A model generated the notes under the pieces. That model did no database searches and was not told the origin of the DNA. It saw only the letters and a list, made by a program, of their open reading frames with translations. A DNA stretch of 37,216 bases from Alphaproteobacteria bacterium PA4 (GTDB taxonomy: Bacteria; Pseudomonadota; Alphaproteobacteria; Sphingomonadales; Sphingomonadaceae), in the NCBI GenBank assembly GCA_002256005.1, contig NKIQ01000028.1, positions 1 through 37,216 of the forward strand, given 5' to 3'. Positions 31,887-35,397 of the stretch are shown here, in pieces. Every line of letters begins with the position of its first letter. The first letter of the stretch is position 1. The translations under genes and the position numbers were made by a program.

Positions 31887-32414
31887 TCAGAACGGATTGA
31901 GCGTATACCCTTCCGCCTGCAGCACTGCATGGGCGCTGCTGGCGGAAATCGCCATTTCGACGCCGGGCAGCAGATCGGCCTTGGCGATGCCCTGCGCGTC
32001 GGCGGACTGGCCGCAGACGATGATGCGGACATTGTGCTTCAGCAGCGCCGCCACCGCGTCGGCGCTGGCATTGGCGGCACCGGCCTTGCGGGCGGCAAAG
32101 GGCGCCGGCCGCAGCAGGTCCTGGATGGCCGGGCCATGGACGACGAGCGCCAGCGCGATATCGGCTTCCGGCACACCGGCGGCGACATGGCTGTTGATGA
32201 AGCGGGCGGCGGTTTCCAGCGCGTCATTGCGCTCACCCCGCTTTGCCGCCGCGGTCACGTCATAGATGTGCCTGAGTTTCAGCCCCTTGGGGATGACGAG
32301 ATCGCTGGCGATGGGGACGAAGGCGCCGAAATCGGCGAACACCGGTCCCAGCTGCTTCGGCGCCGCCAGCGCCGGCATGGCGAGCAGCAGCGCGGCGATG
32401 GCGAGCCCCCGCAT
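31887..32414 (-). CDS. Secreted DsrE/F-like protein
   Basis: A 175-residue protein with a signal peptide (MRGLAIAALLLAMPALA) and a DsrE-like fold: IYDVTAAAKRGERNDALETAARFINSH, IALALVVHGPAIQDLL and VRIIVCGQSADAQGI, with the single conserved Cys in VCGQS that in DsrE relatives handles sulfane sulfur. Exported members are found in proteobacteria but their role is unclear. It starts at ATG 32414. The frame is also open into the upstream nitronate monooxygenase gene, which otherwise would end two bases before this ATG in a different frame. Confidence 0.85.
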   Translation of the reverse strand: MRGLAIAALLLAMPALAAPKQLGPVFADFGAFVPIASDLVIPKGLKLRHIYDVTAAAKRGERNDALETAARFINSHVAAGVPEADIALALVVHGPAIQDLLRPAPFAARKAGAANASADAVAALLKHNVRIIVCGQSADAQGIAKADLLPGVEMAISASSAHAVLQAEGYTLNPF

Positions 32415-32416
32415 CG

Positions 32417-33299
32417 TCAGGCCGCCCGGCCCATGGCAGCGAGCACCCGCACGGCACAGGGGCCGCCATTCGTGTGTCACATCATCGACGACGCCGGCGA
32501 TCGGCCCCAACCGGTTCAATTGCACCGATTCGGCCACCTGCATGACGAAGGGCTTGGCGGTGCTGTTGTCGAAATCGCGGTTGCTGTCGTTGACGATGGC
32601 GCGCAGCGTCTTGCCGGTGAACACCTTGCTGATGACGGTGTCGCTCTCGCTCATGCCCACGATGGCATCCTTGTAGGGCTGGCCGGCATGCGCCTCCAGC
32701 GAGGCGATGAAGCGCGTGCCCATCCAGACCCCGGCGCAGCCAAAGGCCAACGCGGCGGCGAGGCCGCGGCCATCGAACAGCCCGCCGGCGGCGATGACCG
32801 GGATATCGACGGCATCGACGCATTGCGGCCACAGCGCCACCGACGCGACCGATCCGGTATGGCCGCCGCCTTCCGTCCCTTGCGCGATGATGACGTCGCA
32901 GCCGGCCTCGGCGGCCTTGACGGCGTGGCGGACGTTGCCGGCCATGCACATGACGACGACGCCGGCCTGTTTCAGTTCCGAAATGATCGCCACCGGCACA
33001 CCCAGCCCGGCGATGAACGCCTTGGCGCCGCCCTTGATGATGACCTCGACACTGGCGGTCAGCGTTTCCGGCTGGGCGGTGAGCAGATCGACGCCGAACG
33101 GCTTGTCGGTCAGGTCCTTCACCCGCGCCATCTGGTCGGCGATGAAGCGCGGGCTGAGCCCGGCCATGCCGAGCGAGCCGAAGCCGCCGGCGGCACTGAC
33201 GGCGGCGCAGACCTCGGCATAGGAGACGCCGCCCATGCCGGCGAGAAGGACAGGATGCTCGACACCGAGCAGATCGCAGATTTTGGTGTGAATGGTCAT
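32417..33299 (-). CDS. Nitronate monooxygenase-like FMN enzyme, probably frameshifted near its end
   Basis: An FMN-dependent TIM-barrel enzyme of the nitronate monooxygenase / 2-nitropropane dioxygenase family, about 294 residues. PVLLAGMGGVSYAEVCAAVSAAGGFGSLG is the N-terminal flavin motif, CDVIIAQGTEGGGHTG the central one, PVIAAGGLFDGRGLAAALAFGCAGVWMGTRF binds the phosphate, and TGKTLRAIVND is typical. Up to VVDDVTH the frame is normal. Staying in that frame runs without a stop into the DsrE gene; shifting by one base at an ACACAC run (32472-32477) gives a plausible ending, NGGPCAVRVLAAMGRAA, with a stop at 32417-32419. Start is ATG 33299, overlapping the DUF559 stop. Confidence 0.75.
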
Positions 33300-33718
33300 T
33301 GTGCTTCCTTCAATTCTCCCCTCTCCCCTTGAGGGAGAGGGGTGGCGCGCAGCGCCGGGGTGAGGGTACGGAGCGCCGTCAAGATGGCGACATAAACGTC
33401 CTGAGGCTTCTCCATCACCTCTGCATTTGCGAAGCGCAGCACCGTCAGGCCGCGCGCCGCCAGCCATGCGGTGCGCCGACTGTCGTAATCCGTTTGCGCC
33501 GCATGTCCGGCGCCGTCGAGTTCAACGACGAGGCCGACTGCGGCGCAATAGAAGTCGACGATGAACGGCCCGACCGGCTGCTGACGCCGGAAGCGCGCAC
33601 CAAGCTTGCCGCGGCGCAGCATCGCCCAAAGCTCACGCTCGGCGGGCGTGGCGTCGGCACGCAGGATTCGCGCGCGCGGGACGAGCGTTGCGGCGTCATA
33701 ATCTGGTCGATGCGGCAC
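33296..33718 (-). CDS. DUF559 endonuclease-like protein in a repeat-bounded cassette
   Basis: A 140-residue protein of the DUF559 family, related to Vsr/PD-(D/E)xK nucleases. TPAERELWAMLRRGKLGARFRRQQPVGPFIVDFYC leads to Asp55, and VVELDGAGH provides Glu67, Asp69 and His72, followed by a closing VLRFANAEV strand. The fold suggests DNA cleavage; activity is not shown for most members. Start is GTG at 33718; the inner end of the right repeat (GGGTGAGGGT) acts as its ribosome site. The last 20 or so residues (from TLTPALR) are encoded by the left repeat, and its TGA overlaps the next ATG. It sits between the aldehyde dehydrogenase and nitronate monooxygenase genes on the same strand. Confidence 0.85.
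   Translation of the reverse strand: MPHRPDYDAATLVPRARILRADATPAERELWAMLRRGKLGARFRRQQPVGPFIVDFYCAAVGLVVELDGAGHAAQTDYDSRRTAWLAARGLTVLRFANAEVMEKPQDVYVAILTALRTLTPALRATPLPQGERGELKEAQ
33317..33367 (+). repeat. Left arm of perfect 51-bp inverted repeat around DUF559 gene (family 2)
   Basis: The arm is composite: CCTCTCCC/GGGAGAGG with loop cttga, then GGCGC GCA GCGCC, then GGGGTGAGGGT. It is the exact reverse complement of 33721-33771. It forms the coding sequence for DUF559 residues 118-134. Confidence 0.95.
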
Positions 33719-33720
33719 TG

Positions 33721-33771
33721 ACCCTCACCCCGGCGCTGCGCGCCACCCCTCTCCCTCAAGGGGAGAGGGGA
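33721..33771 (-). repeat. Right arm of perfect 51-bp inverted repeat around DUF559 gene (family 2)
   Basis: Exact reverse complement of 33317-33367. It begins two bases upstream of the DUF559 start codon and ends seven bases before the stop of the aldehyde dehydrogenase gene. Confidence 0.95.
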
Positions 33772-33778
33772 AAAACAT

Positions 33779-35215
33779 TCATTCCGCCGCTTCCGCCGCG
33801 CCCCAGCCGATGATCGCCTTGGTTTCCAGGAAATCGGTGAAGGCATGGTCGCCCCATTCGCGGCCATTGCCCGATTGCTTGTAGCCGCCGAACGGCGCCA
33901 TCATGTCGCCGGCCGCCTGATTGATGTTGACCTGGCCGGTGCGCAACTGGCGTGCCACCTGGCGGGCATGTTCCGGCTCGCCCGAGATATAGCCGGCGAG
34001 GCCATAGACGGTGTCATTGGCGATGGCGACGGCCTGTTCCTCGCTCTGGTAGGGCAGCATGGCCAGCACCGGCCCGAAGATTTCTTCCCGCGCGATGGTC
34101 ATGTCGTTCGACACATCGGCAAAGATCGTCGGCTTGACATAATAGCCCTTGTCGAGCCCTTCCGGCCGCCCGGTGCCGCCGGTGACGAGCGTCGCGCCTT
34201 CGTCGATGCCCTTTTGAATCAGGCCCTGGATCTTCGTCCATTGCGTTTCGGAAACCACCGGGCCCATCGCGGCATTGCCATCCGGCGAGCCCACCGTCGT
34301 CGCTTCGGCAGCGGCCTTGGCGATGGCCTTGGCGGCTTCCATCTTCGCCGCCGGCACCAGCATGCGCGTCGGCGCATTGCACGACTGGCCGCTGTTCATC
34401 ATCACCGACTTGACGCCGCCACCGACAGCCTTTTCGAGATCGGCATCATCAAGGATGATGTTCGGCGACTTGCCGCCCAATTCCTGGTGCACGCGCTTGA
34501 CCGTCGGCGCGGCGTTCTTCGCCACTTCAACGCCGGCGCGGGTCGAGCCGGTGAAGCTGACCATATCGACTTCGGGGTGCGAGGACAGCGCGGCGCCGAC
34601 CGTCGGGCCATCGCCATTGACGAGGTTGAACACGCCGGCCGGCACGCCCGCAGCATGCATCACCTCGGCCCAGAGGATCGCCGAGAAGGGCGCGATTTCC
34701 GACGGCTTCAGCACCATCGTGCAGCCAGTGGCGATGGCCGGCACCACCTTGCAGGCGATCTGGTTGATCGGCCAGTTCCACGGCGTGATGAAGGCGCAGA
34801 CGCCGATCGGTTCATGGGTGATCAGCGTGGTGCCGCGCAGCTTTTCGAACTCGTAAGTCTTCAGCACCTCGATACCGGTCATCAGATGGCCGACGCCGAT
34901 GGCGGCCTGGGCCTGCATGGCCAGCCAGCCCGGCGCGCCCATTTCCTCGGTGATCGCCGCGGCGATCTCGGCAAAACGCTCCTGATATTTGGCGAGGATG
35001 TTCTGCAGCAGCTCGACACGATCGGCGCGGCTGGTCTGGCTATAGGCCGGAAACGCCTTGCGCGCCGCCATCACGGCGCGGTCAGCATCCTTCGCACTGC
35101 CCATCGAAATGACGCCGGCGACGGCTTCCGTGGCGGGATTGATGACATCCAGCCGCTGCGGCGTTGCCGGATCGACCCAGGCGCCATCGATGTAGAATTT
35201 CAGATATTCGCGCAT
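33779..35215 (-). CDS. NAD(P)-dependent aldehyde dehydrogenase
   Basis: A 478-residue enzyme of the ALDH superfamily. TPWNWPINQIACKVVPAIATGCTMVLKPSEIAPFSA covers the oxyanion Asn and nucleotide-binding Lys, FTGSTRAG is the coenzyme loop, ELGGKSPNIILDDAD contains the general base Glu, and SGQSCNAPTRM holds the catalytic Cys. EEIFGPVLAMLPYQ and the FGGYKQSGNGREWG ending are normal. It oxidises aldehydes to acids in the cytoplasm; the substrate is not indicated. It probably shares a transcript with the DUF559 cassette and the nitronate monooxygenase downstream. Confidence 0.95.
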   Translation of the reverse strand: MREYLKFYIDGAWVDPATPQRLDVINPATEAVAGVISMGSAKDADRAVMAARKAFPAYSQTSRADRVELLQNILAKYQERFAEIAAAITEEMGAPGWLAMQAQAAIGVGHLMTGIEVLKTYEFEKLRGTTLITHEPIGVCAFITPWNWPINQIACKVVPAIATGCTMVLKPSEIAPFSAILWAEVMHAAGVPAGVFNLVNGDGPTVGAALSSHPEVDMVSFTGSTRAGVEVAKNAAPTVKRVHQELGGKSPNIILDDADLEKAVGGGVKSVMMNSGQSCNAPTRMLVPAAKMEAAKAIAKAAAEATTVGSPDGNAAMGPVVSETQWTKIQGLIQKGIDEGATLVTGGTGRPEGLDKGYYVKPTIFADVSNDMTIAREEIFGPVLAMLPYQSEEQAVAIANDTVYGLAGYISGEPEHARQVARQLRTGQVNINQAAGDMMAPFGGYKQSGNGREWGDHAFTDFLETKAIIGWGAAEAAE

Positions 35216-35311: not shown

Positions 35312-35397
35312 TGTCATCCCGGGCTTGACCCGGGACCCAGTTTTTCTTGACGAGTGCGGAAGGAAAAGCTGGGTCCCGGGTCAAGCCCGGGATGACA
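35312..35397. repeat. Long hairpin repeat, family 3
   Basis: A perfect 29-bp inverted repeat (35312-35340 with 35369-35397; core CATCCCGGGCTTGACCCGGG) continues inward with further pairing (T/A run and wobbles) to about 35348/35361, leaving a loop near 12 nt. It lies in the 206-bp gap between the aldehyde dehydrogenase and M20 genes, both on the minus strand, so as RNA it could terminate or stabilise the M20 transcript. Confidence 0.9.

Follow-up and report, generated by a model that had tools for sequence, protein, structure and literature searches.

We analyzed a 37,216-nt window of DNA from Alphaproteobacteria bacterium PA4 and found a short nuclease gene of the DUF559 family enclosed between inverted copies of an intrastrand-triplex type of repeat, an arrangement recurring at most of the DUF559 loci we studied. 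Such cassettes form arm-to-arm units that are present or absent at the same operon junctions, and their arms are also found alone, singly or as inverted pairs; the copy number of the repeat tracks the gene, and the three-strand mirror symmetry of the repeat is conserved. We consider it likely that the system is a mobile element in which a Vsr/homing-type (EDxHD-like) nuclease acts on triplex-prone ends, the recognition of the arms being inferred without biochemical data. The cassette in the window is then probably a 455-bp mobile unit, its mobility being well supported, and the nuclease is, by inference, a strong candidate for the enzyme spreading the BoxC-type repeat.

The original prediction had described a DUF559 nuclease gene framed by perfect 51-bp inverted arms, each with two hairpins, and splitting an aldehyde dehydrogenase (ALDH)–nitronate monooxygenase (NMO) gene pair. 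All of this held. In a profile search, the reading frame matched PF04480 with an E-value of 1.9e-34 and 118.3 bits (cutoff 20.6), meeting the criterion for DUF559. The inverted repeat extends over 54 nt with 98% complementarity (33314–33367 and 33721–33774), and its sole mismatch lies outside the inner 51 nt. Folded as single-stranded DNA, each arm is predicted to form two hairpins (–18.4 kcal/mol; z of –4.1 and –4.8 on the two strands). The neighbors were confirmed by profile matches (Table 1), and in relatives with an empty site NMO abuts ALDH. Correct, too, were the placement of the GTG start 2 bases inward of the right arm (gene edge 33718, arm from 33721), the encoding of residues 118–134 within the left arm, as judged by coordinate, and the sharing of bases between the TGA stop and the ATG of the downstream gene (ATGA). 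The inner end of the right arm reads GGGTGAGGGT, and its third strand (33722–33731) is likely to be the ribosome-binding site of the nuclease gene, as had been proposed; this is inferred from sequence alone.

Table 1. Features of the nuclease cassette and its neighbors (window coordinates)
Feature	Position	Strand	Basis or remark
DUF559 (PF04480) nuclease gene	33296..33718	–	140 aa, GTG start
Left arm, triplex-type repeat, 3' of nuclease gene	33317..33367	+	inverted repeat and fold
Left-arm pyrimidine stem CCCCTCTCCC	33318..33327	+	predicted fold
Left-arm purine stem GGGAGAGGGG	33333..33342	+	predicted fold
Left-arm spacer hairpin GGCGC-GCA-GCGCC	33344..33356	+	predicted fold
Left-arm third strand GGGGTGAGGG	33357..33366	+	mirror of purine stem, one A to T
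Right arm, perfect inverted copy, 5' of nuclease gene	33721..33771	–	inverted repeat and fold
ALDH gene (PF00171), upstream neighbor, co-directional	33779..35215	–	profile match
NMO gene (PF03060), downstream neighbor; part used as query	32421..33299	–	profile match

Two further features of the surroundings were recorded. Close relatives match the NMO protein of the window only to residues 277–282 (window about 32421–32470), and the NMO frame continues without a stop into the apparent next gene (ORF 31887–33467); this suggests a frameshift or an assembly error. Upstream of ALDH, a second, unrelated inverted repeat (35312–35397, beginning TGTCATCCCGGGCTTGACCCGGGACCCAG) has 35-nt arms of 97% complementarity around a 16-nt loop.

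By their sequence architecture, the arms belong to the BoxC/PIT/TM type of class II intrastrand-triplex repeats, a classification missed by the original prediction; that they physically form a triplex is inferred. In Escherichia coli, knowledge of BoxC-type repeats dates back to the 1990s, and they are able to fold as triplexes in vitro. Holder et al. (2015; PMC4666352) described BoxC/PIT/TM as class II intrastrand triplexes of the form CCCTCNCCC-N3-6-GGGNGAGGG-N3-GGGNGAGGG and listed 23 copies in MG1655; they linked the repeats to instability, saw no mobility gene in the vicinity of the E. coli copies, and reported that footprinting in E. coli did not support stable triplex formation in vivo. 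The window arm consists of a pyrimidine stem, a purine stem, a spacer hairpin, and a third strand mirroring the purine stem (GGGAGAGGGG and GGGGTGAGGG), which satisfies the class II criterion, and it fits the consensus stems CCCTCTCCC-N5-GGGAGAGGG and GGGTGAGGG of TM_ECO. Shared with that family are the order of the stems, the reverse-Hoogsteen third strand, and the dispersal over many genomes. The spacer, however, is 3 nt in the E. coli family and 16 nt with a second hairpin in the window arm (counted from GGGAGAGGG), though spacers of 3 nt do occur in relatives (e.g., L091), and the repeats are here tied to a nuclease gene, whereas no mobility gene was reported for the E. coli sites (PMC4666352).

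In a triplex of the purine motif, the third strand should be a mirror image of the purine stem, A–T pairs being faced by A or T. We examined all purine hairpins near 180 DUF559 loci, reading both strands and thus counting each hairpin twice; usually at most one reading per hairpin carries a tail. A perfect mirror third strand followed the asymmetric purine stem in 274 of 684 readings. The tail was consistent only with a mirror in 205 readings and only with a direct repeat in 21, with 29.9 expected from permuted stems; counted by distinct stem, the numbers were 47 and 12, and a previous form of the analysis had yielded 54 mirror cases against 10. The reading of the tail as a direct repeat is thus disfavored against the mirror reading. 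Among the clear cases are GGAGGAGAGGG followed by GGGTGAGGAGG (L092), GGGGGAAGG followed by GGAAGGGGG (L079), and GGGCGGAGGGG followed by GGGGAGGTGGG, with a T opposite an inverted C–G pair (L084). The second hairpin varies between the arms of one locus while its pairing is kept, as in CTCGGC-GCA-GCCGAG versus CTCGCC-GCA-GGCGAG (L020). Control windows 500–1,100 nt away contained 46 asymmetric readings, 14 of them mirror-only and 1 direct-only. Such an excess is expected from dispersed repeats, and the mirror symmetry therefore tells about the nature of the repeat and not about a need of the nuclease for it.

To quantify the association of the arms with the gene, we aligned the 300 nt preceding the DUF559 domain with the reverse-complemented 300 nt following it and considered scores of at least 16.5 positive; the window arm pair scored 51.5. 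Inverted arms were found at 101 of 147 DUF559 loci with full flanks (7 loci with short flanks were omitted), and only 3 of 584 shifted control positions of these loci reached the threshold. The positives comprise 31 of 34 loci in the genus, none at the one E. coli locus (ycjD), 44 of 65 in the class, and 26 of 47 in the phylum set; 38 of the latter 47 lie outside Alphaproteobacteria, and 22 of those 38 are positive. In a set from named genomes (79 loci, 72 with full flanks), arms were present at 57 of 72 loci and at 1 of 428 shifted controls, the positives including contigs labeled Chloroflexi, Nitrospira, Desulfobacterales, Rokuibacteriota, and Melainabacteria. DUF559 genes generally lacking the repeats would have refuted the original prediction; that is not what we see, and the generality of the association was not anticipated by it. 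The flank test nevertheless found no arm pair at 46 of the 147 and 15 of the 72 loci.

The tested loci are the best-scoring family matches and not a random sample, and the two sets share at least five loci (L016 and L252 are identical; L052/L193, L053/L238, L057/L195, and L102/L205 have the same arms). L016, which comes from a congener of the window genome (G011), matches a contig of Sphingomonadales bacterium UBA6157 without a difference over 3,312 nt, which makes the genus a sphingomonadal one. Sixty of the loci were picked by hand in the order of the match lists, with contig-edge, stop-bearing, and some other entries left out. The only other gene family compared was Vsr, a related nuclease family, where none of 27 loci had inverted arms (30 loci, 27 of them long enough; the gene position was assumed fixed, which is off for L295). 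The similarity of the arms follows that of the proteins (Mantel r of 0.37 over 98 loci; the largest of 1,000 permutations gave 0.16), a correlation that will in part be due to common ancestry of entire loci. Of 157 arm-bearing loci, 133 have a start codon after the upstream arm, in 116 of them at a distance of no more than 40 nt. At one locus (L158 in genome G445), the arms around the DUF559 gene are nearly identical over about 100 nt, possibly reflecting a recent insertion.

The 3.0-Mb genome containing the window carries nine DUF559 genes at nine places with different neighbors, and six of them (L003, L005, L006, L007, L010, and L011, L007 being the window locus) are flanked on either side by long inverted arms. 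Of the remaining three, one is truncated by a contig end and has a weak arm pair (L009), one has several repeats on the upstream side only (L004), and one has no arms by the inverted-repeat test (L008). The arms of these loci have a common architecture and different sequences: a genome-wide search with the 34-nt core of the window arm, allowing up to three mismatches, recovered the window locus only. The original prediction had suggested looking for the 51-bp arm elsewhere; the exact sequence proves to be local and the architecture general. Of 13 matches to a looser triplex pattern in this genome, 7 belong to three DUF559 loci; the 6 at other places include copies like the arms of L003 (C14, C20, and C40) and L006 (C47).

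The association extends to the level of whole genomes. Of 290 alphaproteobacterial genomes, 75 had a strong DUF559 hit (E ≤ 1e-20), and 55 of these carried the triplex pattern, as did 17 of the other 215; the DUF559-strong genomes accounted for 1,952 of the 2,083 pattern copies. The phylum set of 396 genomes gave similar results: 54 of 67 versus 7 of 61 for 128 further alphaproteobacterial genomes absent from the first set (1,205 of 1,320 copies), and 34 of 40 versus 17 of 188 for 228 Pseudomonadota outside Alphaproteobacteria (2,587 of 2,913 copies). In the 27 alphaproteobacterial families with both kinds of genomes, genomes with DUF559 had the higher mean copy number in 21, the lower in 1, and an equal one in 5. 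A reversed control pattern had four or fewer matches per strand in the genomes listed, and up to ten DUF559 genes were found per genome in the sets searched.

The co-occurrence has exceptions in both directions. Strong DUF559 genomes without the pattern number 20, 13, and 6 in the first, further alphaproteobacterial, and other Pseudomonadota sets, and several of those in the first set have variant arms of similar architecture (L056, L061, L069, and L075). Conversely, 16 genomes (5, 4, and 7 per set) have at least ten copies but lack a strong DUF559 hit, and some of them have weak hits. Four genomes (G356, G446, G514, and G611) carry 37–87 pattern copies and no strong hit, for which gene loss or another mobilizer are possible explanations.

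We then compared the boundaries of cassettes at different sites, sites being counted as different if blastn detected no similarity outside the arms; in distant genomes, the flanks could still be orthologous but diverged. In all 40 such pairs, similarity ceased no farther than 15 nt beyond the outer ends of the arms. Nine of them lost similarity within 15 nt of both ends, including two cassettes of one genome (L075/L079 in G161), two pairs within the genus (L005/L023 and L011/L039), and a pair linking the window genome with Sphingobium (L003/L191); most of the rest lost it earlier, within the cassette. Apparent target duplications of 3 nt occurred in 23 of 114 cases against a shuffled mean of 22.4, those of 4–6 nt were within the shuffled range, and no other insertion scar was seen at the cassette ends. 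The cassette thus lacks, at lengths of 3–6 nt, the target-site duplication of a classical DDE insertion sequence.

The original prediction had expected empty ALDH–NMO junctions in close relatives and lone repeat pairs elsewhere; relatives indeed have empty junctions and, at the same site, gene-less arm pairs. The comparison covered 22 loci in 21 genomes, three of 24 genomes having no close NMO orthologue. Five loci in four genomes have the cassette, one has a decayed cassette, and five have arms or remnants without the gene; in four the two genes abut or are separated by no more than 17 nt, and in one the gap is 62 nt. No junction with an intact gene and without arms, the outcome that would have spoken against the prediction, was seen in the relatives. 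Six genomes have a different small gene at the junction (L116, L119, L122, L123, L124, and L129), which we take to be DUF1330-like. The gene-less arm pairs at L120, L125, and L127 lie in ALDH–NMO gaps of 145–186 bp, and their arms are unlike those of the window cassette. In a tree of the 21 NMO genes, the cassette-bearing alleles form a grade that is bordered in both directions by empty and gene-less ones, and inheritance with repeated loss therefore explains the pattern at this junction as well as repeated gain. A second junction, between lpd (a Pyr_redox_2 profile match) and an upstream gene that was named by eye and which we take to be odhB, comprised 22 loci, with allele states read from the sequence upstream of lpd: 7 with a cassette, 1 decayed, 4 empty, and 10 unclassified. 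In the empty alleles, odhB meets lpd directly or after about 37 nt. With the arm-to-arm units and the empty and gene-less alleles of relatives, the proposal of a mobile repeat–nuclease system is supported.

An AlphaFold2 model of the nuclease built from 64 sequences had a pLDDT of 85.6, and residues E27, D55, E66, D68, and H72 are invariant in these sequences, the window protein included. Foldseek and profile searches matched Neisseria gonorrhoeae ngo0050 (3hrl), which itself matches the DUF559 profile; 3r3p (E-value 5.9e-5), which we take to be I-Bth0305I, a member of the EDxHD family of homing endonucleases (PMC6083498); and, weakly, Vsr (1vsr, E-value 0.045). The criterion of an EDxHD homing endonuclease/Vsr fold is thus met, with the reservation that the likeness to I-Bth0305I and Vsr (1vsr and 1cw0) is one of related fold and the catalytic residues were not superposed. 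Unlike those enzymes, the window system has no intron or intein, has structured inverted termini, and occupies many sites per genome. In Caulobacter, loss of a cytosine methyltransferase leads to an SOS response for which the DUF559 protein VsrA is responsible; the authors of that study attribute it to misdirected mismatch repair, the activity proposed for the protein being the nicking of T:G mismatches in a methylated motif, as by Vsr (PMC12907096). Weak PADLOC matches to a DpdF model were obtained for 52 of the 64 family members, and the records matching the window protein included 3 from phages and 43 from plasmids, all below 60% identity.

The mechanism that we envisage is inferred throughout. 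The arm would become single-stranded, on the lagging strand or during repair, and its C-rich stem, G-rich stem, and third strand would fold; the nuclease would bind the folded arm and nick at or beside the structure, for which there are no binding data, and the nick would start the copying or excision of the DNA between two arms. That the nuclease recognizes the hairpins was part of the original prediction and remains an inference without biochemistry. The nuclease would act in cis on a full cassette and in trans on arm pairs that lack the gene, and the upstream arm would probably also provide its ribosome-binding site. RAYTs are thought to serve REPs in a similar cis and trans fashion.

By analogy, the nearest counterparts are the REPtrons (RAYT/TnpA-REP; PMC8266576), with an unrelated protein and repeat. 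Both systems have a small endonuclease gene bordered by palindromic repeats, so that the bordering-repeat criterion is met, together with dispersed repeats and gene-less inverted pairs. They differ in that the window system has a Vsr/PD-(D/E)xK fold instead of HUH/Y1 and in that the GTAG foot is absent from both strands of the 51-nt window arm, which has a three-strand motif instead. The parallel to RAYTs drawn in the original prediction thus holds as an analogy only, the protein being no Y1 transposase. A RAYT/IS200-type element was rejected as an identity for the cassette: the Y1 (REP) transposase (PF01797) has no match in the window genome, which is 96% complete, and is absent from 23 of 24 genomes of the genus.

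Other explanations fit parts of the data. The nuclease could be of the homing type, cutting empty targets or mismatched DNA and spreading the cassette by recombinational repair, with passive arms serving only as terminator, ribosome-binding site, or operon buffer. The nearest solved relatives of known activity, a homing endonuclease and more weakly Vsr, agree with this, as do the SOS response and proposed mismatch repair of the Caulobacter VsrA (PMC12907096) and the missing target duplication. Nine DUF559 genes at nine places are, however, unlike one-site homing, and passive arms leave unexplained both the repeat copies far in excess of two per gene and the covariation of arm and protein; we consider this explanation unlikely. 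Alternatively, the triplex repeats could have come first, spreading through recombination or slippage during replication, with the DUF559 gene as a passenger trapped between two of their copies. Support comes from the gene-less arm pairs at the same ALDH–NMO junction, the reported link to instability and lack of a mobility gene near the E. coli copies (PMC4666352), and the repeat-rich genomes without a strong DUF559 hit. Against it, flanking is rare at shifted positions (3/584 and 1/428) and absent at Vsr (0/27), with other families untested, and the arms differ among cassettes and follow the protein; this account, too, seems improbable to us.

A domesticated regulator or defense nuclease, acting on foreign DNA while the arms control operon expression, appears the least plausible and is very unlikely. 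The weak DpdF matches (52/64) and the position of the start codon after the upstream arm (133/157 loci, 116 within 40 nt) favor it, but it does not explain the dispersed repeats and their link to the gene, and the phage and plasmid records are few (3 and 43) and below 60% identity. We therefore retain the reading of a mobile element with an end-specific nuclease. A bolder form of it holds that DUF559 proteins are the enzymes of a hitherto unrecognized class of bacterial mobile elements with intrastrand-triplex ends: as structure-specific nucleases of the Vsr/homing fold they would recognize the arm in its folded three-strand form, and the BoxC/PIT/TM repeats, in Proteobacteria as in several other phyla, would have arisen in this way. 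We regard this joint claim as about equally likely to be right or wrong.

DUF559 and BoxC-type repeats were each known before, and the novelty lies in their combination. Within the open-access literature searched, no paper joins DUF559 or ycjD with inverted repeats, BoxC, PIT, or intrastrand triplexes; non-open print is not excluded. The link provides a testable enzyme for the spread of BoxC-type repeats and offers a role for a widespread, little characterized family that includes YcjD, ngo0050, and the Caulobacter VsrA, while the mirror-conserved third strand is comparative evidence that selection or an enzyme sees the three-strand fold. If true, the system would add another kind of nuclease–repeat partnership besides REP/RAYT and homing genes.

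The E. coli member of the family gives a partial counterpart of the cassette. The ycjD gene (MG1655 1351407–1351760) carries a DUF559 annotation, and at its 3' end it passes into a degenerate BoxC-like arm. An intact BoxC, no. 9 in the table of Holder et al. (1351205–1351239; PMC4666352), lies about 170 bp past the ycjD stop and forms an 80% inverted pair with the degenerate arm. YcjD thus resembles the window system in its DUF559 annotation and in the arm at the 3' end of its gene but differs in the missing 5' arm, none having been found on that side. No clean empty site was found for ycjD; in three strains without the fabI-ycjD-sapF query that were examined, efflux genes lie next to sapF. 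The region is variable within the species, with 3,333 of 5,426 genomes keeping at least 80% of the query. In E. coli ETEC6, an IS1 element is located within the matched fabI-ycjD-sapF region.
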